A stretch of DNA of 51,547 nt from an uncultured Haliea sp. (GCA_913061115.1 CAJXTK010000002.1:1-51547), one strand, 5' to 3'; positions 25,178 to 50,902 are shown, counted from the first letter of the stretch. Notes: a model not told the origin generated them from the sequence alone. Numbers and translations: made by a program.

Positions 25178-25894
25178 TCAAAAACGCTGAATTTTTTTAC
25201 CTATAAGACGATCACGTAACTTCCAGAATAGATTGTCCGGATTGACCACAATAATGAAAACCCTACGCAGACGATCTTCAGGACATTCGATCGGGTTCAC
25301 CGCGTGCCAGGCATGATCCCCACGCAGTATAAGAGAGCTGTAGTTCCCGAGGCAGTCGCATTCGATAACGTTATCGAACTCTTTAATATCGGGGGCCGAG
25401 TTATAGTCTAGTCGACCACCATCGTCCAATACCAGCGTGGAGCCGCCCCATGCCGCGTCCCAATCGTCAGTGGAATTAAAATAAAACAGATGCGAACCGT
25501 GTTCGCGCTTGGCATCACAATGCGGGGAAACATCAGCACCACTGGGCGTATAATGCCAATGAAAGCGAAACTCTGCTTTTTTCGCACCTAACAAACGCTC
25601 GATTTCTTTACGGTAGGCATCGGAGCAAAGCTCACCGATGAATTCCTTCCAAGGTTTAGGCACGGGCATATCCGGCGTATATTCTAGTGAGTACCGGTCA
25701 TGTGGTGCCTGTCCAGCCCGACGTTCATAACCAAATTTCTGTTCGAACATCTCCTGTGGCGGCATATTCTCCAACAGATCCTGGAAGCCTGATTCAGTCA
25801 GAACGCCTTCGCTATTGAAATACGGATAGGGATTAACGGCCAAGAATTCTTCTCGGGATAGACTGCGCAGCTTCTCAATATTTAGGTAGTTCAC
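25178..25894 (-). CDS. 2OG-Fe(II) oxygenase
   Basis: A 238-residue prolyl-4-hydroxylase-like dioxygenase. Iron ligands H125 and D127 lie in VSPHCDAKREHGS, the distal His is H197 in HAWHAVNPIE (H194 is an alternative), and an Arg at 210/211 (DRLRRVFIIV) would bind 2-oxoglutarate. The GTG start overlaps the stop of the upstream GT-like gene in GTGA. It is therefore translationally coupled as the last gene of a three-gene operon (sulfotransferase, GT-like, oxygenase). Inference: it hydroxylates a lipid chain or sugar of the product made by this island. A second unrelated-looking oxygenase lies at 36063. Confidence 0.85.
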   Translation of the reverse strand: MNYLNIEKLRSLSREEFLAVNPYPYFNSEGVLTESGFQDLLENMPPQEMFEQKFGYERRAGQAPHDRYSLEYTPDMPVPKPWKEFIGELCSDAYRKEIERLLGAKKAEFRFHWHYTPSGADVSPHCDAKREHGSHLFYFNSTDDWDAAWGGSTLVLDDGGRLDYNSAPDIKEFDNVIECDCLGNYSSLILRGDHAWHAVNPIECPEDRLRRVFIIVVNPDNLFWKLRDRLIGKKIQRF

Positions 25895-26805
25895 GCGGCC
25901 ATTCCCTCTAGATTGGGAGTGCGGTCCAACACTTCAAAAGCGTCATGGCGCACATGATTTTTACTGATTTCGTCTCGGACAAGATCTTCGCTGACATGTC
26001 CTGAATGCAGACACTCTTTCAGCAGGCCGAAAAAAAACTGCTGTTGGCGCAAGTCCGGATGTTTTTTATAACGACCCAGCAGGCCATATTGACCAAACAT
26101 CTTTATCCGCAAGCTATTGGCAGAGTCCAGTAGCGGGTTACCCTTGAATTTTTCAGCGGGCGTATAATCCACAGGCAAACCTGTTTTCCATGGCTGTGTT
26201 TTGCGCTTCGTATTGTGCAGTAAGCGCGTATTGGCATCGAGATGGTCAAAGTCGTTCCAGCAGTCTTCGAGGTAGCCGATATTGGCGGGGTCGTCGTAAG
26301 CGAGCACCATCCACTTTTTATAGTCTATTTCCGAGCGGAACAGCTGATCGAACTCCAATTCGGCATCCCAATGCTGCAGGCGAGCACAGTCCATCAACAT
26401 CACACTGGTGGCAACCTGGAGCGCTTTCCTCTGGCTTCCTGAGCGGCGACGGCCCATGACAGCGGCGCCCTTCATGTCCTTTTGTAACAGGTCGTAGATA
26501 TCACCCACTGCGAAAATGTCTGGATCGGTCAGCACCGCGCGTCCCTGCCAATTCATCAACTTCGGCGGCAAAAAGCGCAGTGGCGTGAAGGATTGTAAAT
26601 CGTCCATGTGCCAAACACGCTCAGTACCACCGCGCAGGAAGGTCTGGCCTTCCTTGGCGCTGAGATAGGGGTAGTCACGAGTATGAATAAACTTAACGTC
26701 AAACTTGTCCGCATGGGCTGAATTTCGACGAAAGGAATATTCAGCAACCAAAGCCCCCAGCCATTGCCGCTCATTGGTGTGAATAAAGACGCAGTTATTC
26801 GTCAC
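25891..26805 (-). CDS. GT-A-like glycosyltransferase family protein (paralogue 1)
   Basis: A 304-residue protein, one of three paralogues in this island. They share an N-terminal CVFIHTNERQ-type segment, a central WHMDDLQSFTPLRFLPPKLM and the motif DPDIFAVGDI (D94-P-D96). That motif looks like the DxD metal/nucleotide-sugar site of GT-A enzymes such as GT8. Further shared motifs are QPWKTGLPVDYTP and QFFFGLLKECL near the C-terminus. No membrane segment is seen, so cytoplasmic sugar transfer to a lipid carrier or ceramide is suggested; donor and acceptor are unknown. GTG start; its first base overlaps the stop codon of the sulfotransferase upstream. Confidence 0.6.
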   Translation of the reverse strand: MTNNCVFIHTNERQWLGALVAEYSFRRNSAHADKFDVKFIHTRDYPYLSAKEGQTFLRGGTERVWHMDDLQSFTPLRFLPPKLMNWQGRAVLTDPDIFAVGDIYDLLQKDMKGAAVMGRRRSGSQRKALQVATSVMLMDCARLQHWDAELEFDQLFRSEIDYKKWMVLAYDDPANIGYLEDCWNDFDHLDANTRLLHNTKRKTQPWKTGLPVDYTPAEKFKGNPLLDSANSLRIKMFGQYGLLGRYKKHPDLRQQQFFFGLLKECLHSGHVSEDLVRDEISKNHVRHDAFEVLDRTPNLEGMAA

Positions 26806-27728
26806 TATGCCTCCGCGACCTCTGTGCTGGTATAACCGAACGCCGGCAAAAGAAACGAATCTACCATAGCATCCAACTCCGCCACTTGATCGTCATCAAA
26901 ATAATCGCGGTAACCGCCGACCTTGGCTTTCCGCACCTTGAACGTATTGGGATCATTGACGTCCTTGGCCTGCACGCGACTGCCACTGCGCCAGAAATAA
27001 TTTTCCTGTTCTTTCTTCCGCAGATTCTCCACCGAAGCAAACTCCGCTGTATCCCGGAGATAGTCTGTATTAGCTTCAAGCCCCAGAAATGTGACAATTT
27101 TTGCCATTTCCTGTTCAGGATGTGAGCGCAAGTCTTCATACCGTACCACCAGCAAATGCTGAATTTTCGGTAGCTCTCTAGCCCAATTGTTAAGAAATTC
27201 AATGATGTGCGAGAGGCCCTGGTTGTCGTCCTTCACAAAATCGTAAACCGAAATATCCGCCTCATGTGCGGGATAGTGATTCATGGCCTTCTTCTCCGGC
27301 CGCATGCGGTACTTCCACTGAAAAAACTGTGACACGGCGACATCGATGGGGTTGCGCACTAGCAGCACTGTCTTCTTGCTATAAAAATCTTTTTTCGAAC
27401 CGACATTACCCGTGTAGCCGCGCAGGTAGTTATCATGGGTAAAGAAGATTTTAGGGATATCCCCGTTGAGCCGGGTAAAATTATCAAAGCCCATTAAAAT
27501 GTTGTCGGGCAACTTGTACACCAGCTGGTAGTAGCGCGAGATCATTACCCGCACCCACGTGCGGCCGCTCTTACCGTAAGAGGCAAAAATGTACTGACAG
27601 TGGTTGTACTTCCAGAATTCCTCTCTACCTCGACGCCAGCGCTGTAACTCGTGCGCCTTAGCCTCTGGTAAAAATACCGAAATTGCCCGTACCAACCATT
27701 TGATCAGTCGCTTGATAATCATATGCAT
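26805..27728 (-). CDS. PAPS-dependent sulfotransferase (paralogue 1)
   Basis: A 307-residue Sulfotransfer_1-type enzyme. The 5'-phosphosulfate loop is YGKSGRTWVR (about 51-60), the candidate catalytic His is H99 in FFTHDN, and the 3'-phosphate site is VRNPIDVAVSQFF with R126 and S134. The C-terminal PAPS loop reads VRKAKVGGYRDYF rather than the classical RKGxxGDWKNxF. It would transfer sulfate to a hydroxyl of a sugar or lipid. ATG 27728 follows AGGAG at eight bases. It is the first gene of a tightly overlapped operon with GT-like and oxygenase genes, behind a candidate promoter at 27768-27794. Confidence 0.88.
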   Translation of the reverse strand: MHMIIKRLIKWLVRAISVFLPEAKAHELQRWRRGREEFWKYNHCQYIFASYGKSGRTWVRVMISRYYQLVYKLPDNILMGFDNFTRLNGDIPKIFFTHDNYLRGYTGNVGSKKDFYSKKTVLLVRNPIDVAVSQFFQWKYRMRPEKKAMNHYPAHEADISVYDFVKDDNQGLSHIIEFLNNWARELPKIQHLLVVRYEDLRSHPEQEMAKIVTFLGLEANTDYLRDTAEFASVENLRKKEQENYFWRSGSRVQAKDVNDPNTFKVRKAKVGGYRDYFDDDQVAELDAMVDSFLLPAFGYTSTEVAEA

Positions 27729-28001: not shown

Positions 28002-28841
28002 ATGACTAAGCTAGCTAGAATTATCTTCATCAACGTGTTCATGGCGCTATCCAGCGTTAGTCAGGCCTCTACCATCGAAGCCCCGCAGCTACCTGAGTGG
28101 CGTGTAGTGGAGTTCGAGCAAACAGCGTTTTGGGCCACTGCGCGATCACGCATCGAAGTTCTTCCCGTCGCTGATGATCCGGAGCGCTGGGAATTGTACG
28201 TCGAGAGCTCTGTAGTGAATAATTCAGAGCGAGTGCGGGTGAATTTTGAGCCAGCCACGGGCCGGGCACTCACCCGCTCGCGCCTTAGCCAAGGCAAGCA
28301 AGAACGGGTGAAATCCTACGAGTATGAGGCCGATTTTATAGTCCGTGAACGTCGCGAGCCGGTGACTGATGACGATACCCTACCCCAGGATTGGCCGGCA
28401 ACGTCGCGCACGGAGCTTGTCTATCCTGCTTCGGCGAATGAAATCATGGTGACAACGCCCTACATGCTGCTGCTGCTTGCACAACAGTTGCAGGCGCAAG
28501 GGCCGGGAAAATCTATGGATGTGCTGATTCACACTGATTTGAACTTCTATCGAGTACATCTCACCAGTGGCAATGGCATCCCGATCACCGTTGACTACGA
28601 CATCACGGGGGAAGACCGTGCCGCTGGCACGCGTGAAACACTGGCCGTGGCCATACACGCCAAGCCGGACACGATACTCGAGAAAAAAAATGACTTCAGG
28701 CTGCTTGGACTGAATGGAGAGATTATTTTGTTCTTCGACCGCACTACTGGCTTGCCACTTCAAATACGCGGGCAAGCACCGCGCATTGGCGCCACCGAAA
28801 TCAACCTCAAGTCCGTCACTATGAGGGAATCCCTATTGTGA
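28002..28841 (+). CDS. Secreted protein of unknown family preceding the lipid kinase
   Basis: A 279-residue protein with an N-terminal signal peptide (cleavage likely near residue 22, VSQAS). The mature part is hydrophilic and appears beta-rich; segments include VNNSERVRVNFEPATGRALTR and RTTGLPLQIRGQAPRIG. I do not recognise the family. No metal or catalytic motif stands out. Its stop overlaps the GTG of the lipid-kinase gene in GTGA, so it is translationally coupled to it. Inference: a periplasmic factor for handling or transporting the kinase operon's lipid product. Confidence 0.75.
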   Translation: MTKLARIIFINVFMALSSVSQASTIEAPQLPEWRVVEFEQTAFWATARSRIEVLPVADDPERWELYVESSVVNNSERVRVNFEPATGRALTRSRLSQGKQERVKSYEYEADFIVRERREPVTDDDTLPQDWPATSRTELVYPASANEIMVTTPYMLLLLAQQLQAQGPGKSMDVLIHTDLNFYRVHLTSGNGIPITVDYDITGEDRAAGTRETLAVAIHAKPDTILEKKNDFRLLGLNGEIILFFDRTTGLPLQIRGQAPRIGATEINLKSVTMRESLL

Positions 28842-29803
28842 GACCGATGGCAGGTCCGATAGGTCTGATCAGCAACCCCAGCAGCGGCCACAACCGCGAC
28901 CAATTCGAAGGCATCCGCTCACGTATCGAGCGGCATCCAAGCATCCACCACCGTATTACGCACTGTACGGCTGATATCGGGCCTGTGCTGCAGGAACTTG
29001 CCGACCTCAATGTCCGGGTACTGGCAATCAATGGCGGCGATGGGACAGTGGCGGCCATTCTTGGTGCGCTTTTAGAATCGAAACCCTTCGTCACACCACC
29101 TCTAATCGCCCTACTGCCGGGCGGCACAGCCAACATGAGTGCTGGGGATGTAGGCCTGCGTGGCTCACTTAATAAGGCGGTCACGGACTTCTGCCGGTGG
29201 AGTGAAGGCAACCGTGAAACTGCTAATAAAATCGCGCAACGGGCAATGCTGCGGGTGGTCATAGACACCGACCAACCCGAGCGCTATGGAATGTTTCTCG
29301 GTGGCGGGGCAGTCATTCATGGCACGGAATACGCCCACAAGGAAATCCACTCGCGGGGCCTGCGCGATGATTTTAGCCTCGCGCTGGGCACACTGCGCAC
29401 TGTGTGGGGGGTCGTACGTGACGACCCAGATTTCAATCAGCAGGTCGACATCACACTGTCACTTGAAGACAGTGATCCGACCCAATACAGCACCCTAATC
29501 CTCGCCGTGAGCACTCTGCAGCGTCTGGCTTTCGGTATGCGCCCGTTCTGGAGCACAGAGCCTGGCGCCATTCGCCTGACTCTCATGGAACAGGGCTGTA
29601 CTCGCTTTGCCCGCACCTTCTTCTCTATTGTGCGCGGTCGTCACAGTCGCAATGCGATGCCGACATCGGGCTACCATAGCCACAACACCAATAGGGTAAC
29701 GCTTAAAATGGAAGGTAAAATCAATCTGGACGGAGAACTACTGCAGGTTGCCCAAGCTGCGACGATAAGCGCCAGCGAACCTCTGGCATTTTTGCGCCTG
29801 TGA
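28838..29803 (+). CDS. Diacylglycerol/sphingosine/ceramide kinase-type lipid kinase
   Basis: A 321-residue DAGK-catalytic-domain protein. The ATP-site opening is LISNPSSGHNR (residues 10-20), the central loop is NGGDGTVAAIL with GGDGT at 66-70, and LLPGGTANM lies at 93-100. The family phosphorylates the hydroxyl of diacylglycerol, sphingoid bases or ceramide on the cytoplasmic face of the inner membrane. The nearby serine palmitoyltransferase-like and ceramide synthase-like genes favour a sphingolipid substrate; from memory, Caulobacter has a ceramide kinase (CpgB) of this fold. GTG start within GTGA overlaps on both sides, so it is the middle gene of a coupled trio. Confidence 0.82.
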   Translation: MRPMAGPIGLISNPSSGHNRDQFEGIRSRIERHPSIHHRITHCTADIGPVLQELADLNVRVLAINGGDGTVAAILGALLESKPFVTPPLIALLPGGTANMSAGDVGLRGSLNKAVTDFCRWSEGNRETANKIAQRAMLRVVIDTDQPERYGMFLGGGAVIHGTEYAHKEIHSRGLRDDFSLALGTLRTVWGVVRDDPDFNQQVDITLSLEDSDPTQYSTLILAVSTLQRLAFGMRPFWSTEPGAIRLTLMEQGCTRFARTFFSIVRGRHSRNAMPTSGYHSHNTNRVTLKMEGKINLDGELLQVAQAATISASEPLAFLRL

Positions 29804-30753
29804 ATACCTACCCCAAGGTCGCCGGTCCCGACGCAGTATTGGACCCGACGCTAGCGGCGCTGTTGGCACAACTTGATGCCCGCCATCACGGTACTATCTG
29901 CAGCACGTTAGTGTATGGCTCCTGCCTGCGCAGCGGCGATATCTATGACGGGCTGCTGGACCTGTATCTGATCTGCGATAGCTATCGCGCAGCCTATCGC
30001 CGCCCTCTACTAGCGGCTGCTAACTGGCTGTTACCTCCCAATGTCTTCTATGCCGAGCAAAAGCCGGTAGACGATGGCAATGAGGGCAAGACCCTGCGCA
30101 GCAAAGTCACCGTCATTTCCTTGCGCGATTTCCAACGAGGTTGCTCACCAGCCTGGTTCGAGTCCTATATCTGGGGCCGTTTCGCGCAGCCCACCCGCAT
30201 CTTATATGCCCGTGACCAATCAGTGCGAGGTCAGATAGAAACAGCCCTCACGCAGGCAGCGCATACCCTGCTGCGAAAGGCTCTGCCAGCTCTACCCGCT
30301 CAGGGCAGCCTTCTGACCTTGTGGGAGCAATCGCTAAGCCTAAGCTATGCGACAGAACTGCGTACAGAGCGCGGCGGGCGGGCCCAGGAGTTAGCAAGCA
30401 CGTCCCTGGACTTCTATGGAGCCCTGACGCGGCATCACGCAAGCGACCTCGGGTTTTCCTTCTCCTTGCACACGCAGGACGAGGAACTGCATTATCGCAG
30501 CCAGATTGGCACCATCAGGCGCCGACTTGCGACGCTGGCATGGGCGCTTCGACGGGGCCAAGGTAAGCTCCTATCTATCGTGCGGCTGATCAAAGCGCTG
30601 TTCACTTTCGAGGGCGGATTGGACTACATAGCCTGGAAGCTCGAGCGTCACTCGGGGGAGGAAATCCTCATCCCCGATGCGGTCAGGCGTGCGCCACTCA
30701 TCCACCTATGGGGATTTTTTTGGGGTCTTTACCGCCGCGGGATTTTTAAGTAA
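29800..30753 (+). CDS. Tam41-like CDP-lipid synthase (nucleotidyltransferase fold)
   Basis: A 317-residue protein that lines up by eye with mitochondrial Tam41 CDP-diacylglycerol synthases. Similar features are LVYGSCLRSGDIYDGLLDLY (nucleotidyltransferase YGS at 39-41 and acidic D54), then NWLLPPNVFY, KVTVISLRDF, YIWGRFAQPTRILYARD and LSLSYATELRTERG. Tam41 activates phosphatidic acid with CTP. Directly after the lipid kinase (GTGA overlap), it could activate ceramide 1-phosphate or phosphatidic acid with CTP. The match is from recalled motifs, not an alignment. The C-terminal ~100 residues are basic with a hydrophobic end (LWGFFWGLYRRG) suited to membrane contact. Confidence 0.6.
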   Translation: MNTYPKVAGPDAVLDPTLAALLAQLDARHHGTICSTLVYGSCLRSGDIYDGLLDLYLICDSYRAAYRRPLLAAANWLLPPNVFYAEQKPVDDGNEGKTLRSKVTVISLRDFQRGCSPAWFESYIWGRFAQPTRILYARDQSVRGQIETALTQAAHTLLRKALPALPAQGSLLTLWEQSLSLSYATELRTERGGRAQELASTSLDFYGALTRHHASDLGFSFSLHTQDEELHYRSQIGTIRRRLATLAWALRRGQGKLLSIVRLIKALFTFEGGLDYIAWKLERHSGEEILIPDAVRRAPLIHLWGFFWGLYRRGIFK

Positions 30754-30882
30754 CAACGGACTGATATCCAGCGTAGCGCGTACTATTCACGTTCAAAACA
30801 GTTCCTCGAAATAGCAAATTAAGACGTATTCCTTTATAGTTTTAGGATCATTAAAGTGACCTCTGACAGCCTTGGCAACCCC

Positions 30883-31827
30883 ATGAAAGCCTCCGTATTT
30901 ATTCAAACCAACCATAAGCAAATTACCGGTGCCATCGTCGCCAAACACGCCCTGCGTCGCTACTCCCTCAACAACGACAAGTTCGATGTGCAGATTATGG
31001 ACAGCCGCGACTACCCCTTTTTCGCTGCTAGGGAAGGTCAAGAGTACCTTCGTGACGGCGTCAAGCGTACCTGGCTGAATGACGATTTGCAGTCTTTTAC
31101 GCCAACACGGTTCATGCCGCCAAAGCTGATGAATTACGAGGGCCGCGCTGTGGTCATCGACCCCGACATCTTCGCCACTGCCGATATTTGGGCGCTACTT
31201 AGTCGGAACATGGAGGACAATGCCATCATGTGCCGCATGCGATCCGGCCCCAAGGGTCTGATCGATAAATGTATGGCCAGCAGCGTTATGCTGCTTGATT
31301 GCGCCAAACTCCCCCATTGGGATGCCCACAAAAGCTTTGAAGCCATGTTCGATTTCACCCAGGACTACCAACCTTGGATATGTCTGAAGGAAGAGGATCA
31401 AGCCTCAATCGGTTTTTTCGAGACCCAGTGGAACGATTTCGACAAGTTCTCACTGGACACCAAATTGCTCCACACCACACGGCGCAAGACTCAACCCTGG
31501 AAGACCGGCCTGCCTACCGACTGGCGTCCCGCGGAACGCTTTCGCCTGTTCCCCCCTGCGGCCTGGATCATGCGCGCACGCCGCAAACTGTTTGGCGAGT
31601 ACGCTTTTTTGGGCAACTATAAGCAGCACCCCGATCGCAACCAGGAAGCGTTCTTCTTTGGCCTGCTTAAGGAGTGCATACAAGAGGGCAAGATTAGCGA
31701 GGACTTCTTACGCGCTGAGATGGCACAGAACCATGTTCGCCATGACGCATTGGAAATTCTGGCCAATACACCCGATTTACCCTCGGCACCGCTGCATCCG
31801 CTCAGCGCGTTATCACAAGCTGCCTGA
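30883..31827 (+). CDS. GT-A-like glycosyltransferase family protein (paralogue 2)
   Basis: A 314-residue paralogue of the proteins at 25891 and 33050. Shared blocks are VFIQTNHKQITGAIVAKHALRR, WLNDDLQSFTPTRFMPPKLM, the DxD-like DPDIFATADIW, KTQPWKTGLPTDW and EAFFFGLLKEC. The ATG at 30883 aligns with paralogue starts; a GTG at 30856 is the other option. Its last 26 bases overlap the 3' end of the ELM1-family gene on the opposite strand. It follows the lipid kinase/Tam41-like trio by ~130 bases and may be cotranscribed with it. Confidence 0.6.
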   Translation: MKASVFIQTNHKQITGAIVAKHALRRYSLNNDKFDVQIMDSRDYPFFAAREGQEYLRDGVKRTWLNDDLQSFTPTRFMPPKLMNYEGRAVVIDPDIFATADIWALLSRNMEDNAIMCRMRSGPKGLIDKCMASSVMLLDCAKLPHWDAHKSFEAMFDFTQDYQPWICLKEEDQASIGFFETQWNDFDKFSLDTKLLHTTRRKTQPWKTGLPTDWRPAERFRLFPPAAWIMRARRKLFGEYAFLGNYKQHPDRNQEAFFFGLLKECIQEGKISEDFLRAEMAQNHVRHDALEILANTPDLPSAPLHPLSALSQAA

Positions 31828-32914
31828 CCGTCTGCGCTGCGCGCTTCAGTTCATTGTGTGCAACTGATCCGGACCCCTGCGAAGGAGCAGAAGGCGACGC
31901 GATAGCCGCCCTCAAGCCATCTGCAGCAGAGTGGATCATACTGGGCTCCAACCATCGTGCCCCACCATCGCGCACCAAAGTATTCTGAATATTACCAATA
32001 TCGCGCCGCATACGGGCGGGCCCGAAACGCATTGCAACGCGGTGACTGAGCGGTTTGTAGCGGTAGCTGTGCGGCAGCGTCCACCAATGCGCCGCGCCGT
32101 CGCCCACATCAAATATGTAAAGCGGCCGGCCCGTATCGACGGCTTCGCCCAGCATGGACATGGACTCGCCAGTGACCACAAAAGCATCTGCCAGCGCCAA
32201 CAGTCCTCGATAAGGGTTGTCATCCCCACTGCCCCAACGGTAGCAAAGATTCGGAGCGGTCAATTGCGCCTGCAAAGCATCTCCGGCCGCACGCGGTGTG
32301 CGTGCACTGTCGGTCAACAACACAGAGCCGCCTGCAGCAGTAGCAAGATCCGCAGCCAGTGAGCCCAGCCGCCGACCCTTCTCACCGGTCATGACAAAGC
32401 GGCCACTGTCACCCCCTACAAGCACTGCCAACCAAGGACGCGGAAGGGCCGCCAACTGCGGGCGCAACTGATTTTCGGCACGTCTGAGGCCTTCCAGCGA
32501 CACACGGTGCAATGGCAGAGTGTTGTGCAGGATGTTGTCCTGCTGTGGCAAAAAGTACTGTGGGGTCGTCACGATCAGATCCCAACTCGACAGAGACGCC
32601 CAGGGGCGGCCAATATGGACCAGACGAGTGAGTCCACCAGATTGCTGCCTTATCCACTGTGCTACAGGCTCATTGCGACGCCCGGCGCTGATCACAATAT
32701 CCGGCCAGGGAGCCTGCAAATCACTGGATTGACGGCGATCGATCCCCACAAGCGTCGCCCCAGTGCCGAGATGACTCAACAGTTCCCAGGGCCTGGCCGC
32801 TATAGACTTCTCTACGCTGTCCAAGTCCAATTCCGCAGCCAGAGCGCGCACCTGCGTATTATCGCCGGCTTTCTTCCCCAGCAGACACCAGACTGTTAAT
32901 TGATCCTCGCCCAC
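31802..32914 (-). CDS. ELM1-family (DUF1022) protein, paralogue 1
   Basis: A 370-residue member of the family named after plant mitochondrial fission factor ELM1. Typical blocks are VWCLLGKKAGDNTQVRALAAEL at the N-terminus, LQAPWPDIVISAGRRNEPVAQWIR, THIS-type pattern LVHIGRPWASLSSWDLIVTTPQY, AVLVGGDSGRF and DAFVVTGESMSMLGEAVDTGRPLYIFD. The late VTGESMSMLGEA block and two-domain layout look like GT-B glycosyltransferases, and bacterial members often sit in lipid A/core loci, but the activity is unknown. GTG start. It diverges from the third GT-like paralogue. Confidence 0.8.
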   Translation of the reverse strand: MGEDQLTVWCLLGKKAGDNTQVRALAAELDLDSVEKSIAARPWELLSHLGTGATLVGIDRRQSSDLQAPWPDIVISAGRRNEPVAQWIRQQSGGLTRLVHIGRPWASLSSWDLIVTTPQYFLPQQDNILHNTLPLHRVSLEGLRRAENQLRPQLAALPRPWLAVLVGGDSGRFVMTGEKGRRLGSLAADLATAAGGSVLLTDSARTPRAAGDALQAQLTAPNLCYRWGSGDDNPYRGLLALADAFVVTGESMSMLGEAVDTGRPLYIFDVGDGAAHWWTLPHSYRYKPLSHRVAMRFGPARMRRDIGNIQNTLVRDGGARWLEPSMIHSAADGLRAAIASPSAPSQGSGSVAHNELKRAAQTVRQLVITR

Positions 32915-33049
32915 GCAGTTTCCTTATTACATCGATTGTCGGTAACGGCCACACCAGAGCGTCGCTCCAAAAATTGCCAAAGCCAGACGTTTGTAGAAGA
33001 TCGCAGTAGCGTTAAACTATCCCACACATTATGCGCGAGAAGAAACAGT

Positions 33050-34988: not shown

Positions 34989-34990
34989 AT

Positions 34991-39056: not shown

Positions 39057-39058
39057 CG

Positions 39059-40000: not shown

Positions 40001-40133
40001 TTAGTGTAATACTCGCAGGCAGGGTGTATTTGCATTCGCAAAGCGTGCAATTATGCTCGAAGCAAGCCAAAATGGCCAGATAACGGGCGCTTCATGTAGA
40101 ATAGCGGCCTGCATCGACAGGAACACGACCCCC

Positions 40134-41201
40134 TTGATTATCGACCGCCACATCAGCCGGGAAATTATTCGCCCCTTCTGTACGGGGCTCGGCCTCCTAG
40201 TACTGATTTTCATCGGCTTTTCCGCGGCGCGCCAACTGACCCTCGCCGCAAGCGGGCAACTGGATATGCTGACCGCGCTCAAGCTTGTCAGCCTCAATAC
40301 GCTGATCACACTGGAGATATTGTTGCCCTCGGCATTTTTCTTCTCAGTGTTGTCGGCTATCGGCCGACTCTACCGTGACTCCGAGATGAGCGCGCTCTAT
40401 GCCGCAGGCGTTAGTAGGGCACGTATTCTGCAAGCGGTGTTGAAGCTTGCACTGGTCATCGCTCTCATCACCGGATTGATGTCCACTCTGGGTCGCCCGT
40501 GGGCTTTTCGCACCAGCTACGCCTTGGAATCACAGGCCGCAGCTCAATTTGATTTAAAACAGATGTCAGCCGACGAGTTCGTCACCATGGATGGCAGCGA
40601 CTACACCTTTATCGCCCAAGACGTAGACCTGGAAAGGGGGTTACACAAGGGTGTATTCCTACAAAAGAATTACCAGAAGGAGGCGCGCTCTGAGATCATC
40701 GTTGCAGAATCGGCGGCGATGCCCACGCTCAATCCGGGTCAAGCTATGCAAGCGACTTTTTATAATGGTTACAATTACCTGCTGGACAATAGCGGGCAAA
40801 AGGATTTGACGCTGAAGTTCAAAGAGTTGGTCGTCCAACTGCCCAACGAAGAGGCGCAAGAGAAATACCGGCGCAAGGCGGAAACCACGCTGAACCTGTC
40901 ACAATCCTCCAATCCCAAGGATGTCGCGGAATACCAGTGGCGAATCACCACGCCGCTAGCAACGATACTTCTCGCCTTGATTGCCGTGCCACTGGCTCGC
41001 TCCGCACCAAGAGAATCCCGCTTTCGCAACGTTTCTATTGCCCTGTTAGCTTACATCACACTGTTCTCCATGGTCAGCGTACTGCGCACTCTCATGGAGC
41101 AAGGTACACTCGGGGCGATACCGGGGCTGTGGACTGCCTATGTCCTGCAGGCCGGGCTGCTGGCACTACTACTGACGTTCCCAAGGATGAAACGGCGATG
41201 A
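40134..41201 (+). CDS. lptF: LPS export ABC transporter permease LptF
   Basis: A 355-residue YjgP/YjgQ-family permease. It has an N-terminal IIDRHISREIIRPFCTGLG helix block, three early and three late transmembrane helices, and a periplasmic beta-jellyroll domain in the middle (about 115-255). With LptG and the LptB ATPase it extracts LPS from the inner membrane and passes it to LptC/A/D. TTG 40134 is chosen because it matches the usual LptF N-terminus; AGGA lies upstream. The stop overlaps lptG in ATGA. pepA, the usual divergent neighbour in gammaproteobacteria, is absent here; a sulfotransferase takes its place. Confidence 0.9.
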   Translation: MIIDRHISREIIRPFCTGLGLLVLIFIGFSAARQLTLAASGQLDMLTALKLVSLNTLITLEILLPSAFFFSVLSAIGRLYRDSEMSALYAAGVSRARILQAVLKLALVIALITGLMSTLGRPWAFRTSYALESQAAAQFDLKQMSADEFVTMDGSDYTFIAQDVDLERGLHKGVFLQKNYQKEARSEIIVAESAAMPTLNPGQAMQATFYNGYNYLLDNSGQKDLTLKFKELVVQLPNEEAQEKYRRKAETTLNLSQSSNPKDVAEYQWRITTPLATILLALIAVPLARSAPRESRFRNVSIALLAYITLFSMVSVLRTLMEQGTLGAIPGLWTAYVLQAGLLALLLTFPRMKRR

Positions 41202-42268
41202 TCCTACAACGCTATATAGGCTTAAGCGTAGTCAAAGGCTGGCTACTTGCCATGGTGGTACTGGGGGCCATTTTCGGTCTGATCAGCTTCACCCAAGAGT
41301 TGGATCATACCGGATATCAATACAATACCCTCGCAGTGGCGCGCTATACGCTGCTCATCCTACCCAACCAATTAGTGAACCTGGCCCCGGTGATTGCGCT
41401 GCTAGGCAGTATCGTTGCGCTGTCCAGCCTCGACCGCTACAACGAGTTAACCATCGTCAGCTGTACCGGTTTCTCCCCGACACAGTTGCTCGCCACACTC
41501 GCCTTACCGACCTTGCTGCTAATGGCCGGGCTCTGGGTCTGCATGGAATACGTCACGCCACAACTGCAGCAATCGGCAGGACAGGAACGGCAGCGATTGC
41601 GCGATGGAACGTCCGGATGGCTTCCCGATGGCGGAGTCTGGTCCACAGACGGGCAGAGTTACATCCATCTGACAATCATGTCCGAGGACAACGTGCCGGG
41701 CGGCATTAGTCTCTTTGAATTTGATGAGTCCAATCAGCTGGTTCGCGCCATGCGAGCGAACACAGCAATCGTCAAAGACGATAGAACATGGGTATTTCAA
41801 ACGGTCAAAGAAAAAATATTAGTGGACGGTCAACTTCAAACCCAGACCCATGATGCACTGGAAATTACTAACCTTTGGTCCCGTGACGAGTTGCCTACAC
41901 TCACACTGCCGGTTGCCAGCATGAATCTGTCGTTACTCTATCGATACAGCCAATATCGGGCCACTAATGGGCAGCCCGTAGGAAAATACATGAATGCGTT
42001 CTGGCAAAGACTGCTGATGCCACTGACCGTTTGTGCCATGGTTCTGCTAGGCACCTCAATCAGTGCGAGCATCACTGCGGGGCGCGATCGCAGCTTGGGT
42101 GTCAGCATAGGCATTGGTGCTGTACTGGGTATACTGTTCTATTTAGGCGCACAGATTATTTTCTCACTCGGACAACTCTTGCAATGGAATATTCCACTGG
42201 TAGCCCTTTTACCGACGTTAATTACGCTTGCCGCCGCCCTGTTACTGCTGCGGCGTATGCGTTGGTGA
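41198..42268 (+). CDS. lptG: LPS export ABC transporter permease LptG
   Basis: A 356-residue YjgQ-type permease (start MILQRYIGLSVVKGWLLAMV). It has six predicted transmembrane helices and a central periplasmic domain with DGTSGWLPDGGVWSTDGQSYIHL. It pairs with LptF to lift LPS or, in this context, possibly another lipid. The ATG overlaps the lptF stop codon (ATGA), giving coupled translation and a 1:1 ratio. The ABC transporter gene follows 73 bases later on the same strand. No lptB, lptC or lptA is in the window. Confidence 0.92.
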   Translation: MILQRYIGLSVVKGWLLAMVVLGAIFGLISFTQELDHTGYQYNTLAVARYTLLILPNQLVNLAPVIALLGSIVALSSLDRYNELTIVSCTGFSPTQLLATLALPTLLLMAGLWVCMEYVTPQLQQSAGQERQRLRDGTSGWLPDGGVWSTDGQSYIHLTIMSEDNVPGGISLFEFDESNQLVRAMRANTAIVKDDRTWVFQTVKEKILVDGQLQTQTHDALEITNLWSRDELPTLTLPVASMNLSLLYRYSQYRATNGQPVGKYMNAFWQRLLMPLTVCAMVLLGTSISASITAGRDRSLGVSIGIGAVLGILFYLGAQIIFSLGQLLQWNIPLVALLPTLITLAAALLLLRRMRW

Positions 42269-42341
42269 GCCAAACTGTGACGCACGTTATGACAAAATTG
42301 ACAGCGCTTTTCGCTCTAGCCACTGCCGAGGACATATCCAC

Positions 42342-44087
42342 TTGCGTCTGATACTCAGCTTTTTTCGCGCTTATCCCTGGCAAAGCGCACTGATGATTTT
42401 GGCTCTACTGCTGTCGGGTGCAGCCGAGGGCATCGGACTATCCGCCCTGCTACCGCTGTTGAATATTGCGCTGGGACCCGAAGCAACCAACATGTTACCG
42501 GGCGCGGATATGGCAAACCAGAATGAGTTTGAACGCACCGTGCTCGACACACTGGCGAGCATTGGTATTACGGCTACCCTGCTCAATATGCTCCTAATTG
42601 TACTGGGCGGGGTTGCCTTTAAAAGTCTATTTCTGCTTATAGGTCAGCGGCAGGTAGGTTATACCGCAGCCCAAGTCAGCACCGACTTACGCCTGCAGTT
42701 GCTGCGTGTGGTATTGCGCAGCAAATGGGAATATTTTTTGCATCAGCCTGTAGGCAAATTAACCAATGCACTGGCCTCAGAAGCCCAGCGATCGTCTGCT
42801 GCTTTTATCAATGGCGCCACCGCGATCATCTACCTGATTCAAGGACTGATCTATGGGGCCGTAGCCTTTGCATTGTCCTGGCAGGCATCGGTGGCGGGCA
42901 TCGGCGCCGGGATTATCGTGATTGGCCTGTCGCACTTTTTGGTAAGAATCACCCGTCGGGCCGGTAAAAAACAGACCCTGCTAATGACGTCACTCATGTC
43001 TAATCTTACCGATACCCTACAATCGGTCAAACCATTAAAGGCAATGGCGCGGGAACACCTCGCGGACAAGGTACTAGCGCAGGACACTAATCGTCTGAAT
43101 AAGGCCCTGCGCCGCCAGGTGATGAGCGCCGCTTCACTGGACTCGGGCCAGGAACTGATGTTCACCGCATTTATTTGCCTAGGCGTGTATGTCTCAGTGG
43201 CCAAATTCAGCATGGATCTGCCCGTAGTCATGGTGTTAGTCGTTGCCTTAGGCCGTGCCTTTGCATTCTTTGGAAAAGTGCAAAAGCAATACCAAAAACT
43301 GGCACAGGGGGAGAGTGCTTACTGGGCCCTGTTGGATTCCATCAATGATGCCAGCAATGCCGAAGAGCATCTTGGCGGCGACGTCAGCCCACACTTTGAA
43401 ACAGCCATCTACTTCGCCAACGTCACTTTCGATTACGACGAGCGGCACCCTGTATTTAACGGCCTATCCTTGCAGATTAAAGCGGGCTCATTAACAACAC
43501 TGGTCGGATCTTCTGGCGCGGGGAAAACCACTATTGTCGATCTGACGATAGGCCTACTCCAGCCCAAGAGGGGCGAGATTCTAGTAGACGGAACTCCGTT
43601 GCGGGACGTCGACCTCAGGCTATGGCGAAACATGATAGGTTACGTGCCGCAGGACACCATTCTGCTGCATGACAGCATCTTGCATAATGTGACGCTAGGA
43701 GACCCGAAACTGAGCATCAGCGACGCGGAGCAGGCGCTGCGTGCTGCCGATGCCTGGGAATTCGTGTCCGGGCTGCCAGAAGGCTTGAGCACAATGGTCG
43801 GCGAAAGAGGCGGGAAGCTCTCCGGTGGCCAGCGCCAGCGTATCGTAATCGCTCGGGCGCTGGTAAACCGACCGCGCCTGTTAATTCTCGATGAAGCCAC
43901 CAGTGCCTTGGATCGCGAGAGCGAGGATGCTATCTGCAAAACACTGGGAGGCCTGAAAGGGCAGCTCACCATTTTGGCTATTTCCCATAATCGCGCCATG
44001 GTACAGGCGGCCGATTATGTCTACAGGATGACCGATGGCACTGCCAGCTTATTGCCCAAGGAAGACCAGTCAGCCCTTGCCAAGTAG
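42342..44087 (+). CDS. MsbA-like ABC transporter (fused permease-ATPase)
   Basis: A 581-residue half-transporter with about six transmembrane helices in the first ~310 residues and a C-terminal ATPase: Walker A GSSGAGKTT near 389, signature LSGGQRQR near 492, Walker B LLILDEATSALD near 512, and His in ISHNRA. It is of the MsbA/McjD/lipid-exporter type; the insert EGIGLSALLPLLNIAL after helix 1 is common in glycolipid or peptide exporters. TTG 42342 follows GAGGA. Placed after lptFG, it would flip a lipid to the periplasmic leaflet before extraction. Its end overlaps the convergent ELM1-family gene by 18 bases. Confidence 0.88.
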   Translation: MRLILSFFRAYPWQSALMILALLLSGAAEGIGLSALLPLLNIALGPEATNMLPGADMANQNEFERTVLDTLASIGITATLLNMLLIVLGGVAFKSLFLLIGQRQVGYTAAQVSTDLRLQLLRVVLRSKWEYFLHQPVGKLTNALASEAQRSSAAFINGATAIIYLIQGLIYGAVAFALSWQASVAGIGAGIIVIGLSHFLVRITRRAGKKQTLLMTSLMSNLTDTLQSVKPLKAMAREHLADKVLAQDTNRLNKALRRQVMSAASLDSGQELMFTAFICLGVYVSVAKFSMDLPVVMVLVVALGRAFAFFGKVQKQYQKLAQGESAYWALLDSINDASNAEEHLGGDVSPHFETAIYFANVTFDYDERHPVFNGLSLQIKAGSLTTLVGSSGAGKTTIVDLTIGLLQPKRGEILVDGTPLRDVDLRLWRNMIGYVPQDTILLHDSILHNVTLGDPKLSISDAEQALRAADAWEFVSGLPEGLSTMVGERGGKLSGGQRQRIVIARALVNRPRLLILDEATSALDRESEDAICKTLGGLKGQLTILAISHNRAMVQAADYVYRMTDGTASLLPKEDQSALAK

Positions 44088-45193: not shown

Positions 45194-45436
45194 ATGATCG
45201 ATTATTCGGAATACCTCAGCTTCCTTTGCAGCGCACTCGAATCACAGAATAAAAAGAAGCTGATTTTGTCTGAAAACACTTCGCTGGTTGCAGATATCGG
45301 GCTTAGCTCCCTAGAAGTGATGGAGTTTATCGAAAAAATCGAGGATCACTTCGACATATCCATTCCCTTAAATATCCTTCCTGACGTCAACACGATTGGT
45401 GACCTCGCAACAAAGGTTAGACAACTCAATCTCTAA
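45194..45436 (+). CDS. Dedicated acyl carrier protein
   Basis: An 80-residue ACP. The phosphopantetheine Ser is S39 in VADIGLSSLEVMEF; the residue before it is Ser instead of the usual Asp of the DSL motif. The acidic second helix (EFIEKIEDHFD) should dock partner enzymes. It is only 35 bases upstream of the serine palmitoyltransferase-like gene, so it probably supplies the acyl thioester for that condensation in place of acyl-CoA, an arrangement known from other bacterial sphingolipid loci. A phosphopantetheinyl transferase from elsewhere is needed. The ribosome site is weak. Confidence 0.9.
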   Translation: MIDYSEYLSFLCSALESQNKKKLILSENTSLVADIGLSSLEVMEFIEKIEDHFDISIPLNILPDVNTIGDLATKVRQLNL

Positions 45437-45471: not shown

Positions 45472-46674
45472 ATGATGTTCGACAAGTTTAAACCTATGGC
45501 CGACTTTCAGGCCGAGCTCGCAGAGCGCAGCGTTGAGCCCTTTGGCGCCATTACCGAAAAAATTCTGTCTGCCACAGAGGGTGTAGTGCAAGGCCGTAAC
45601 GTTATCCTAGCGGGCACCAATAATTATCTCGGGCTGTCTTTTGACCCTCGCTGCATTAAAGCCGCCCAAGATGCCACAGCACTCTGGGGGACGGGCACCA
45701 CCGGGTCCCGACTCGCCAACGGCTCTTTCGCTGAACATCAAGCGCTGGAAACCGAAATAGCGCAGTTTTACGGCGTAGACAACGCAATCGTATTCTCCAC
45801 GGGCTATACCGCAACCATGGGCATGTGCGCCACGTTGGCCGGCCCTGGAGATGTGATTCTCCTTGATGCCGACAGCCACGCGAGTATTTACACCGGGGTC
45901 AAACTGAGCGGTGCAGAGATTATACGTTTCAAGCATAGCGACCCCGAGGATCTTGCCAAGCGACTGCGCCGGCTGGGTGATCGTGCTCATCAGACGTTAA
46001 TTATCGCAGAAGGCATTTATTCTATGCTGGGCGATGTTGCGCCACTGCAGGAAATTGCTGCGGTTAAGCGCGAGTACGGTGGCTATCTGTTTGTAGATGA
46101 AGCCCATTCCATGGGCGTCATGGGTGCTACCGGACGAGGTGCAGCCCAAGCCGCTGGAGTGGAAGCAGATGTCGACTTTTTTTGCGGGACATTCAGTAAG
46201 AGCCTGGGCGCCATCGGTGGGTTTTGTGTCAGCCGGCATGCGGAATTGGCGGCCATTCGCTTTTGCATCAACTCCTATATCTTCACCGCATCGTCCTCAC
46301 CCTCTGTCATCGCTTCCACACGCGAAGCGTTGCGCATAACTGCCGCTGAACCCGAATTACAGGCAAAATTGTGGAACAACTGCAACCGTCTTTACCAGGG
46401 GTTAAAGTCCATGGGCCTCCCAGTAGGCCCTACCGCCAGCCCGGTCGTTGCGGTGGCGATGGAGGATCGCTCACGCACAATCGACTGCTGGAAGGCGCTG
46501 ATGGAGGCTGGAGTCTATGTCAATCTGGTTATCCCACCAGCCTCACCTTCGACCAATTTCCTTCTGCGTAATAGCGTCAGCGCAGCCCACACGAGCGCGC
46601 AGATCGATGCCATCATCGCCGCCTATGCCGGCCTGATATCTGCCGGCCTTATTACCGGCACACAGGCACACTGA
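45472..46674 (+). CDS. spt: Serine palmitoyltransferase-like alpha-oxoamine synthase
   Basis: A 400-residue fold-I PLP enzyme of the SPT/AONS/KBL family. The PLP lysine K243 lies in [13 protein letters not shown], the form typical of SPT rather than GTLGKA of AONS. H136 (DSHAS) stacks on the cofactor, and D209/H212 lie in [14 protein letters not shown] condenses an acyl thioester with serine to 3-ketosphinganine, the first step of sphingolipid synthesis. The adjoining ACP and a ceramide-synthase-like gene nearby support this over biotin synthesis, whose other genes are absent. An alpha-oxoamine synthase with a different amino acid remains possible. Its stop shares one base with the murA start. 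Confidence 0.85.
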
Positions 46675-47924: not shown

Positions 47925-48010
47925 TACCAAACCAGGCGTACACTATTGGTTGCGATGTCAGGCGCTCATCGGTAAATGCTACAATGACAGGCGACGAGGA
48001 ACATCAAGCC

Positions 48011-48931
48011 ATGCCGCAGTGCTTCGCACAACTCTCTGATCCCCACCTCAGTTCGCTGAAAGGAGTGCGCGGGCGCGACCTTTTTAGTAAGCGGGGCCTA
48101 GGCTACCTGTCTTGGCGCAGAAAGCGCCGCTTCGAGCACCGCACGGAAGTTCTCGAAGCACTGCAGCGCGACTTAGAGTTATCGGAGCTCGATCAACTAC
48201 TCGTCACCGGCGACCTGACCCATATCGGTTTGCCGCAGGAGTTCGAACAGGCTCGGCAGTGGCTGCAGGAACTGGGCAACCCCGGCCAAATAGCGCTGGT
48301 ACCGGGCAATCACGACGCTTGTGTTGCGGCGCCCTGGAGCGAAACTTTTGCCTTATGGCAGGACTATATGGCCTCAGATAACGACCACAACACCGCAAGG
48401 GAAACAGTGAACTTCCCCAGCCTGAGAGTGCGCGAGGGCATCGCCTTTATCGGGTTATCCAGCGCTTGCCCCAAGCCACCTCTTATGGCCACAGGCACTA
48501 TTGATAGCGAACAATTGAACAGGCTACCGGCGCTATTGCAACGCACAGCGGATGCAGGCCTGTTCCGGGTCGTCTATTTGCATCATTGTCCAGTGGCGGG
48601 AAAAGAAAAGTGGCGTAAGCGCCTGACCAACGCACCCGAAATACAAGCCCTGCTGGAGGAATATGGCGCCGAAATGGTTTTGCACGGACACGGGCACCGC
48701 GCACATTACAACGAACTACAGACTCGCCATGGCAGCCTGCCCATTATCGCTGTCCCATCGGCCTCTGCCCTGGGACTGCACGGGGCAGATATCGCCCATT
48801 ACAACCGCTATCAAATAGAACGCACTGGCGGAGGCTGGCAGGCAAGCATCGATTCGCGGCGCTACCGACCTGAAGTGGGGGAGTTTTGTGAAGGGACAAA
48901 CAGAACGCTGCGAATCAATCGCAGCCATTAG
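48011..48931 (+). CDS. Calcineurin-like metallophosphoesterase
   Basis: A 306-residue phosphoesterase with all the dimetal motifs: QLSDPHLS, VTGDLTH, VPGNHDA, YLHHCP and LHGHGHRAHY. It resembles class III phosphodiesterases (CpdA-like) more than LpxH. Possible substrates include a phospho-lipid or nucleotide-linked intermediate of this island. ATG 48011 begins just before the conserved core (PQCFAQLSDPHL) and follows GAGGAA at a longish distance; an ATG at 47984 is also in frame. It follows murA by ~85 bases in the same direction and ends seven bases from the convergent nucleotidyltransferase stop. Confidence 0.87.
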   Translation: MPQCFAQLSDPHLSSLKGVRGRDLFSKRGLGYLSWRRKRRFEHRTEVLEALQRDLELSELDQLLVTGDLTHIGLPQEFEQARQWLQELGNPGQIALVPGNHDACVAAPWSETFALWQDYMASDNDHNTARETVNFPSLRVREGIAFIGLSSACPKPPLMATGTIDSEQLNRLPALLQRTADAGLFRVVYLHHCPVAGKEKWRKRLTNAPEIQALLEEYGAEMVLHGHGHRAHYNELQTRHGSLPIIAVPSASALGLHGADIAHYNRYQIERTGGGWQASIDSRRYRPEVGEFCEGTNRTLRINRSH

Positions 48932-48938
48932 CACTTTA

Positions 48939-49757
48939 TCAGGCGTCTTCTTCCGCCGCTTTCGCCAGCGCGCCCTTGACCAACATCAGGTCAGCGATTG
49001 AATCCACGTCTATGGCGGCATTCGCGTAAGGCAGAATGACCGCACGCATGCGCAGTCCCAGACGCTTACTCAGTTTGGCCAACGCCTCTTCCAGGGACAG
49101 GAATCCGAAGCGATAACGTATGACTGCCCACCACCCCAGCAAACCAATGACCACCAGTGGCTTCTTGCGCTCTTGTTCGATCTTGCGCCAAAACTTGGCA
49201 GCGCGCCGTCCTTCTGGGGTAATGAAGGCAAACAGGTTGCAACCGCAGAAGTCCCCGTCACTGAAGTGCAGTACCGTTTTACGTATGCCGGGATAGGCCT
49301 CAGCAACCAGTGCATAGGGCGCTAGACCGACCGTGACATCAACATCGTCTGCTAGGCTCTGCCGACCGAATGCATCAACAATTTCAGGCGTCAATAATGG
49401 GTGGTCGGCCGTCGTCAGTAGCACTGCATCCTCAGGACCCAACCGCGACATGACCTCATAGGCACTGGTACTAGGACTAATACCGGGCTCGCTCCAAGTC
49501 ATTTCACCATCGTCAACCCACTTTTGCAGGGCGGGGTCAGTCGCCACCTCACTGGCCTCAGGCCCGGTCATATAGATTCTACTCACCACCCGCGAGACGC
49601 GCAGAGAGTCGAGTACCCTGCGCACCATAGGGGTGCCATCCAGATCAATCATGGCCTTGCTGCCGGCCTCAGTATGATTGATCAATGAGTCTGCCTTAGT
49701 ACGATCGCCTGCCAGTACGATGGCGACCATTTGATGTGATTCCGGATCAAGTTGCAT
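48939..49757 (-). CDS. MobA-like nucleotidyltransferase (sugar/lipid head-group activation)
   Basis: A 272-residue GT-A-like NTP transferase. The N-terminus VAIVLAGDRTKADSLINH departs from the usual LAGGxGxRM loop. It continues SKAMIDLDGTPMVRRVLDSL as in that family, and LLTTADHPLLTPE provides the metal Asp. It would couple NTP with a phosphorylated compound. It lies two bases after the ceramide-synthase-like gene and is surely cotranscribed. From memory, a phosphoglycerate cytidylyltransferase (CpgD) with this type of fold acts in Caulobacter ceramide phosphoglycerate synthesis, which would fit. Specificity is not provable here. Confidence 0.8.
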   Translation of the reverse strand: MQLDPESHQMVAIVLAGDRTKADSLINHTEAGSKAMIDLDGTPMVRRVLDSLRVSRVVSRIYMTGPEASEVATDPALQKWVDDGEMTWSEPGISPSTSAYEVMSRLGPEDAVLLTTADHPLLTPEIVDAFGRQSLADDVDVTVGLAPYALVAEAYPGIRKTVLHFSDGDFCGCNLFAFITPEGRRAAKFWRKIEQERKKPLVVIGLLGWWAVIRYRFGFLSLEEALAKLSKRLGLRMRAVILPYANAAIDVDSIADLMLVKGALAKAAEEDA

Positions 49758-49759
49758 AA

Positions 49760-50902
49760 TTACAAGTCTTTTTGATAGACGCGGTAGCGTTTATACGCCA
49801 CGCCGCCGATGGTTTCAATAATACTGCGCATGCCGTCGTTATCCTCAAGTATCCAGCCCATCTCAACATCCTTTACACCGCGGGCATGTAACGCCTTGCG
49901 CACCGCGTCTATGACCATGAAGGCCAGTGTCGGGCCGAGACGAGAATGCTGAAAACTCTGCTTGACGCCCATCAGGGGGACGCGGGCTGTTTTGGGGTGA
50001 CGCACTTTAAGGCGCCAAAGAAGCTTGGCCCAACCAAAGGGCAACAAACGGCCATTAAGATCGTGGGCAGCCTCGTTAAGATTCGGCAGTGCCACAATAA
50101 AGGCGACCGGCTCGCCGTCATACTCTGCGATCTGAATGTAGTCATCCGGCATCAGCTTGGCAAGTGTTGACACCGTTTCAAGCCACTCAGACTCTGCCAA
50201 GGGCACAAAACCCCAGTTGTTCTGCCATGCATCGTTGAAGATTTTCAGCATAATGCGCGCGTCCTCCGCCAGATGCTTGCGCCTCATAGGTCGCGTTTTC
50301 ACCCGATCAGACACCCGACTGGCCAGCCGCTCCATGACTCGGGGAGCTTCAAAGTCAGGCCGCACCTGATAAGCCAGAAGGTCTTTCGCGCCCACATAAC
50401 CCTGGGCCTCCACTGAGGGGCCGTACCAGCGGCGCGCATGGCCCATCAGTACGTAGGGCGCCGTGGCAAACCCATCGACCAACAGCCCCACCTCTTCGTT
50501 GACGTGTAAATTAAAGGGGCCGCGCACCTGCTGCATTCCCTCACTTCTCAGCCAGTCTTCGGCTGCATCAAACAGGGCCGAGAATATAGCCGGGTCATCA
50601 TCCGCCTCCAGCATACCGAAATATCCGGCAGCGTCGGCGTGTTGCTGCAGGTGCATTTCATCAATCTGTGCGGTGATTCGTCCTACTGTGATGCCGTTTC
50701 TATAGGCAATCCAAGCGCGCCAGCGAGCATGCTCGAAAAAGTGATTGGCCTTGGAAAGCTGCTCACGCTTCATGAAATTCAGCGGCGCAATCCAAGCAGG
50801 GTCAGGCGCATAGATACGATGAGGTAGAGCCAAAAACTGGCGCAACGCCTTGGCCCCGGTCACCACCTCCACAGAGATGGATACATTGTTATTCTGGCTC
50901 AT
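49760..50902 (-). CDS. GNAT-fold N-acyltransferase, bacterial ceramide synthase-like
   Basis: A 380-residue protein of the large GNAT family that older annotations call 'dATP pyrophosphohydrolase' and to which the bacterial ceramide synthase bCerS belongs. Typical blocks are PHRIYAPDPAWIAPLNFMKR, NHFFEHARWRAWIAYRNG, TVGRITAQIDEMHL, VRGPFNLHVNEEVGLLVDGF and ARRWYGPSVEAQGYVGAKDL. bCerS N-acylates a long-chain base to (keto)ceramide in the cytoplasm. The proximity to SPT and ACP is the main support for function. It is the first gene of an operon with the nucleotidyltransferase. Family members also occur without SPT, so the activity is inferred. Confidence 0.75.
   Translation of the reverse strand: MSQNNNVSISVEVVTGAKALRQFLALPHRIYAPDPAWIAPLNFMKREQLSKANHFFEHARWRAWIAYRNGITVGRITAQIDEMHLQQHADAAGYFGMLEADDDPAIFSALFDAAEDWLRSEGMQQVRGPFNLHVNEEVGLLVDGFATAPYVLMGHARRWYGPSVEAQGYVGAKDLLAYQVRPDFEAPRVMERLASRVSDRVKTRPMRRKHLAEDARIMLKIFNDAWQNNWGFVPLAESEWLETVSTLAKLMPDDYIQIAEYDGEPVAFIVALPNLNEAAHDLNGRLLPFGWAKLLWRLKVRHPKTARVPLMGVKQSFQHSRLGPTLAFMVIDAVRKALHARGVKDVEMGWILEDNDGMRSIIETIGGVAYKRYRVYQKDL

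Follow-up and report, generated by a model that had tools for sequence, protein, structure and literature searches.

A Conserved Pair of Ceramide Kinase-Like and Tam41-Like Genes in a Sphingolipid Cluster of Haliea: CDP-Ceramide as a Proposed Intermediate

Introduction

Sphingolipids allow Caulobacter partial independence from lipopolysaccharide. Ceramide kinase activity of CpgB (CC_1160) has been demonstrated biochemically (PMC10331486), and CpgC (CC_1161) is required, after ceramide 1-phosphate, for ceramide phosphoglycerate (CPG) in Caulobacter (PMC11324152). The mechanism of the CpgC step, from ceramide 1-phosphate to CPG, was termed unidentified in 2025 and 2026 (PMC12275187, PMC13228409); NDP-activated ceramide had been suggested as a possible CpgC product in 2024 from an InterPro hit (PMC11324152). 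Here, these proteins are compared with a trio of genes at positions 28002–30753 of a 51,547-nucleotide stretch of DNA (the window) from an uncultured Haliea sp., a marine gammaproteobacterium (GCA_913061115.1, CAJXTK010000002.1:1-51547). As judged from sequence and gene order, the second and third genes of the trio are homologues of cpgB and cpgC, and the pair probably acts in a bacterial phosphosphingolipid pathway which is proposed to run via CDP-ceramide.

Architecture of the Gene Trio

The trio consists of the following open reading frames (ORFs):

28002..28841, plus strand: predicted secreted or periplasmic protein, 279 aa, EipB (DUF1849)/LolA-like beta-barrel fold (from the model and a hydrophobic N-terminus)
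28838..29803, plus strand: CpgB-type ceramide kinase homologue, DAGK_cat fold, 321 aa (PF00781, 5.8e-13; motifs; synteny)
29800..30753, plus strand: CpgC-type Tam41-like nucleotidyltransferase, 317 aa (weak PF09139 match, fold and residues); proposed CTP:ceramide-1-phosphate cytidylyltransferase

A first-pass annotation, made from the DNA alone, had described three ORFs joined by four-base overlaps, a DAGK/ceramide-kinase fold being followed by a Tam41-like protein. The coordinates proved exact, and both junctions (28838–28841 and 29800–29803) read GTGA, in which a GTG start overlaps a TGA stop; the PF00781 match and the Tam41 fold match described below bear out the two protein assignments. 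The order of the three genes is identical in 20 loci of related genomes, for which ORF coordinates were taken from tblastn. At the first junction, 16 of these loci have −4 and 4 have −1; at the second, 18 have −4 and the remaining 2 have +2. Since order and close junctions are kept across the 20 relatives, the tight coupling is conserved rather than due to chance.

The kinase and Tam41-like genes are co-directional in all 53 loci holding both, and in each of the 35 loci measured the kinase gene immediately precedes the Tam41-like one. Chromatocurvus halotolerans, Pseudohaliea rubra and Mangrovimicrobium sediminis are cultured relatives with the pair. In the 19 loci L158–L176, no copy of the secreted-protein gene was found. 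The conserved unit is the kinase/Tam41-like pair, and the secreted-protein gene is lineage-specific.

Tam41 Fold and CTP-Site Residues of the Third Protein

An AlphaFold model of the 317-aa protein, built from 21 relatives (pLDDT 87.5), matches the Tam41–CTP–Mg structure of Firmicutes (7ecd; Z 19.0, 2.9 Å, 225 residues) and mitochondrial Tam41 (Z 15.9 for 6ig4 and 15.7 for 6ig2), and Foldseek gives 2.1e-9 to 6ig4. The structural match to Tam41, whose absence would have refuted the first-pass annotation, was thus found; outside Tam41, the highest-scoring structure was an aminoglycoside nucleotidyltransferase, at only Z 6.7. At the sequence level, a single-sequence phmmer search against the PDB gave nothing meaningful, and a profile of 42 diverse homologues found 6ig2 (1.4e-4) and 7ecd (3.8e-4). 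PF09139 (Tam41_Mmp37) matches 16 of the 42 homologues at E <= 0.1, with a best E of 3.3e-9.

Residues Y39-G40-S41, D54, P80, K102, R127, Q130, Y183, E186, R188 and E190 are invariant in the 42 homologues. In profile alignments, YGS and D54 align with YGSGV and with the Asp of MIDF/QIDL of Tam41, although this segment alone is weakly scored; K102 lies opposite the lysine of KYGV/KYGI, R127–P131 opposite the Arg-to-KP stretch, and SYATELR opposite SYLGDIR/SYSGDTR. Tam41 retains one of the three acidic residues usual for its fold, and a single D54 is therefore as expected. The catalytic acidic residue, whose presence in an alignment had also been at stake in the first-pass annotation, is this invariant aspartate. 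The Tam41 fold, together with the preserved CTP site, would give CpgC a definite reaction to assay.

The Kinase and Synteny with Caulobacter cpgB-cpgC

In the kinase, NGGDG (65–69) and LDGE (297–300) are invariant and PGGTAN is conserved among 21 relatives. It is the sole DAGK_cat gene of its genome.

Locus L158 links the pair to the Caulobacter genes. Its order is AasR, CerR, acyl carrier protein (ACP) and serine palmitoyltransferase (Spt), followed on the opposite strand by the Tam41-like protein, DAGK and a CDP-alcohol phosphotransferase (CDP-OH-P-transferase), and then by a phosphoesterase, LptF, LptG, a GNAT protein (CerS), a CC_1153-like protein and a CpgD-like nucleotidyltransferase; the names AasR, CerR, CpgA and CpgD are our reading of sequences and positions. 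This layout is that of the published Caulobacter crescentus cluster CC_1165 to CC_1152 (PMC11324152), so that the Tam41-like gene corresponds to CC_1161 (CpgC) and the kinase gene to CC_1160 (CpgB). The L158 protein at the CpgC position was found with profile A1 at 1.8e-42 and is 31% identical to the window protein.

Co-occurrence with Serine Palmitoyltransferase

Of 57 relatives, 28 have an over-cut-off Spt and are counted as Spt-positive; the Tam41-like gene occurs in 26 of these and in none of the 29 others (Fisher 3e-14, phylogeny not corrected). One of the two exceptions, G010, is only 74% complete. Across the phylum (397 genomes), the gene is found in 29 of 39 genomes with Spt and in 1 of 358 without it (Fisher 2e-34, likewise uncorrected). 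In this one exception (G344, locus L175), a divergent Spt-like gene adjoins the Tam41-like gene.

Sphingolipid Genes in the Window and Genome

The following genes of the window would serve ceramide synthesis or lipid export, or resemble CC_1153 and CC_1158:

40053..41201, plus strand: LptF-like permease (LptF2), putative sphingolipid export (8e-13 to LptF of the Caulobacter-type locus L158)
41201..42268, plus strand: LptG-like permease (LptG2) (PF03739, 9.7e-51; TIGR04408, 249 bits; start placed by inference inside ORF 40937–42268)
42228..44087, plus strand: MsbA-type ABC exporter, putative flippase (PF00005 and PF00664; TIGR02203, 247 bits, sub-cut-off; start uncertain)
45194..45436, plus strand: acyl carrier protein, AcpR-like (ACP models, E 6.5e-11)
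45472..46674, plus strand: serine palmitoyltransferase, Spt (NF047599, 585 bits, cut-off 500)
47984..48931, plus strand: metallophosphoesterase, CC_1158-like (42% identity, 2e-63 to the L158 gene at the CC_1158 position)
48939..49757, minus strand: MobA/CofC-like nucleotidyltransferase, CC_1153-like (33% identity, 3e-29 to the L158 gene at the CC_1153 position; PF12804)
49760..50902, minus strand: GNAT-family ceramide synthase, CerS (45% identity, 1.6e-108 to the L158 gene at the cerS (CC_1154) position)

CerR is encoded on contig C98 of the same genome (5e-43). By these sequence matches, the ceramide-synthesis set of Spt, ACP, CerR and CerS is complete in the genome and lies mostly in the window.

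A full-length murA (46674–47924; TIGR01072, 585 bits), the only murA found in the genome, overlaps the spt stop (TGATG). In most Spt-positive relatives, the single murA directly adjoins spt. This arrangement couples an essential peptidoglycan gene to sphingolipid synthesis.

Proposed Pathway and Alternatives

In the proposed pathway, Spt, ACP, CerR and CerS would produce ceramide, which the DAGK-fold kinase would convert to ceramide 1-phosphate. The Tam41-like protein would then transfer CMP from CTP onto ceramide 1-phosphate, yielding CDP-ceramide and pyrophosphate, and another enzyme would exchange CMP for a headgroup. LptF, LptG and the ABC protein would export the lipid, perhaps aided by the EipB-like periplasmic protein. 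The link to ceramide is drawn from the complete ceramide pathway, the co-occurrence with Spt and the synteny with Caulobacter cpgB-cpgC, evidence on which the first-pass annotation had not drawn. We infer that CTP is the donor and CDP-ceramide the product, and likewise infer the headgroup and the part played by the periplasmic protein. If the scheme is true, the principle of CDP-activated lipids extends from glycerolipids to bacterial sphingolipids.

Phosphorylation by the kinase followed by CTP activation, perhaps to CDP-ceramide, is what the first-pass annotation had suggested: fold, residues and the ceramide setting favor that order of events, and the product itself is still a proposal from sequence and models. 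The annotation took such a bacterial intermediate to be possibly undescribed; as a hypothesis it is not wholly new, since an earlier paper had put forward NDP-activated ceramide for CC_1161 (PMC11324152). The term 'CDP-ceramide' was not found in a literature search (subscription papers not covered). The idea is therefore an independent rediscovery, which is strengthened here by fold, residues and co-occurrence.

Several observations weigh against this scheme. The PF09139 match of the window protein (22.7 bits, residues 100–191) falls under the curated cut-off of 24, and PF09139 gave no match in any control genome, Caulobacter vibrioides included. The Tam41 match covers model residues 6–270; the roughly 47 C-terminal residues that follow are family-specific and include five residues invariant in the 42 homologues (Y276, K280, R283, H284 and G286), so that substrate or chemistry could differ from those of Tam41. 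The kinase tree neither shows nor rejects a single clade with cluster-linked CpgB kinases (p-AU 0.148), which leaves CpgB orthology to synteny, and the assignment of L158 to Caulobacteraceae comes from its cluster layout. In addition, no CDP-ceramide-consuming enzyme was recognised in the genome, in which CpgA is absent and only two PF01066 genes are present.

Salvage of diacylglycerol is a different use of the same chemistry, in which the kinase would produce phosphatidic acid and the Tam41-like protein, as a true Tam41, CDP-diacylglycerol (CDP-DAG). Characterised Tam41 relatives yield CDP-DAG with the same fold and CTP-site residues, and the kinase has the DAGK_cat fold, but CdsA (190.7 bits) and DgkA (108.6 bits) are also encoded in the genome. 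Because these are separate genes and the window kinase is the only DAGK_cat gene, ceramide is favored over diacylglycerol as the substrate. Also, the Tam41-like gene occurs almost only with Spt, in sphingolipid clusters, and the Caulobacter gene at the same position is required for CPG. Salvage is thus considered quite improbable. Still less credible is a chance proximity of capsule or sulfated-glycan genes to sphingolipid genes, with a lipid other than ceramide as the substrate: although the window also contains four sulfotransferases and two other accessory protein families, in other proteobacterial loci the pair is found without those genes, yet with Spt, CerS and LptF/G, and the co-occurrence with Spt is nearly complete.

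CpgC might also act on ceramide 1-phosphate without CTP, by using another nucleotide or by taking the headgroup directly from an activated donor such as CDP-glycerate. Genetic data put the CpgC step after ceramide 1-phosphate and before CPG, with no further known transferase, CDP-glycerate is produced in the Caulobacter pathway, and the conserved C-terminal part is not found in Tam41, all of which would suit a direct transfer. However, the CTP-site residues of Tam41 are invariant, the fold match to Tam41, which uses CTP, is far better than that to nucleotidyltransferases that use ATP, and mutants of CC_1152 (cpgD) accumulate CPG (PMC11324152), indicating that CDP-glycerate is dispensable for the CpgC step. 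A reaction without CTP is therefore regarded as unlikely, and transfer of CMP from CTP to ceramide 1-phosphate is preferred.

The EipB-Like Protein

The 279-aa protein has a hydrophobic segment, MTKLARIIFINVFMALSSVSQAS, at its N-terminus. Searches of Pfam and NCBIfam and a profile search of the PDB found no match to it, and DUF1849 of Pfam matched none of 20 members of its family. In a fold search, its AlphaFold model (pLDDT 89.5) resembled Brucella EipB (6ntr; Z 13.8 over 204 aligned residues, rmsd 3.7), a bovine sperm axonemal chain (9fqr_Xh; Z 15.1) and, at a Z of about 8, LolA-like proteins. The function of EipB, an envelope protein of the periplasm with a likeness to LolA and LolB, is unsettled (PMC10787603). 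On the basis of the model, the 279-aa protein is probably periplasmic with an EipB-like fold; that it carries or chaperones the new lipid in the periplasm would be a guess from that fold.

The Halieaceae Variant of the Cluster

The trio is surrounded by accessory genes, several of which occur as paralogues:

26805..27728, minus strand: sulfotransferase, Halieaceae-type accessory (PF00685, 1.3e-22), one of at least four in the window
34056–35060, 34991–35971 and 39059–40000: sulfotransferase paralogues
30856..31827, plus strand: conserved protein family next to the trio, with paralogues at 25891–26805 and 32900–33937 (no Pfam/PDB match)
31802..32914, minus strand: ELM1-like protein, accessory (PF06258, 4.8e-56), with paralogues at 37962–39083 and 44070–45116

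The four sulfotransferase paralogues lie in one 15-kb stretch, and a sulfatase gene is located at 22020–23495. The three ELM1-like (PF06258) paralogues, whose function in bacteria is unclear, are inside the sphingolipid cluster. The unnamed family (about 310 aa, with a DPDIFA motif) is present in Halieaceae and in other sulfotransferase-bearing clusters; two paralogues scanned had no Pfam match and the family had no PDB profile match. It is possibly a GT-A-like glycosyltransferase. Neither sulfotransferases nor the unnamed family were found in any of the 19 loci L158–L176.

No CpgA homologue was found in the Haliea genome, which is 93.6% complete, and full-length CpgA matches occur in only 2 of the 57 relatives (G020 and G043). 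Of the two PF01066 CDP-alcohol phosphotransferase genes of the genome, one is PgsA-like and lies next to a uvrC-like ORF. Given the missing cpgA, the headgroup and the final lipid in the Halieaceae lineage are probably not those of ceramide diphosphoglycerate (CPG2); from the gene content, the simplest guess would be a sulfated phosphosphingolipid. The cluster variant without cpgA and with sulfotransferases, ELM1-like proteins and the unnamed family is new here, and literature searches (subscription papers not covered) returned nothing on bacterial sphingolipids with sulfotransferases or on Halieaceae with sphingolipids. This cluster hints that marine bacteria have a sphingolipid variant not yet reported.

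A wider view is more doubtful and is offered tentatively: CDP-ceramide would be real and produced by CpgC-type enzymes across alpha-, beta- and gammaproteobacteria, and in Halieaceae it might feed an undescribed sulfated phosphosphingolipid, made with sulfotransferases, ELM1-like proteins and the unnamed family replacing CpgA, and exported by dedicated LptF/LptG/ABC proteins and an EipB-like periplasmic carrier.

Two metagenome-assembled genomes (MAGs) labelled Rhodobacteraceae and Roseovarius (loci L088 and L096) bear the kinase/Tam41-like pair with Halieaceae-like sulfotransferase and ELM1-like genes, suggesting horizontal transfer or misbinning. A MAG labelled Klebsiella pneumoniae bears a marine-type cluster (L106; contig CAMAXE010000013.1), and the label looks wrong.

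Comparison with Known Systems

The closest described system is Caulobacter CpgB (CC_1160/CCNA_01218) and CpgC (CC_1161/CCNA_01219). As there, a kinase gene is followed by an adjacent, co-directional Tam41-like gene, and spt, acp, cerS, lptF2/lptG2 and CC_1153- and CC_1158-like genes lie around the pair. Unlike in Caulobacter, an EipB-like gene is coupled upstream of the window pair, a CpgA homologue was not found, and sulfotransferases, ELM1-like proteins and the unnamed family surround the pair; sequence divergence is also large.

The likeness to the CDP-DAG synthase Tam41/TAMM41 (6ig2, 6ig4 and 7ecd) comprises the fold of about 225 residues, YGS, the single Asp, Lys and Arg, and the SYxx(D/E)xR residues, and use of CTP is presumed to be shared. 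The window protein differs in that it is sub-cut-off in Pfam, has a family-specific C-terminal part, and is tied to sphingolipid genes rather than to mitochondrial cardiolipin synthesis. Similarly, the kinase shares its catalytic domain and GGDG motif with the YegS/DgkB lipid kinases (2bon, 2jgr and 4wrr), but it falls under all NCBIfam cut-offs and is linked to ceramide genes. With the envelope-integrity protein EipB of Brucella (6ntr), the 279-aa protein has in common a beta-spiral fold akin to LolA/LolB and a periplasmic location, which for the window protein is predicted; it differs from EipB in its identity of about 10%, with no sequence-level match, and in its gene neighbourhood.

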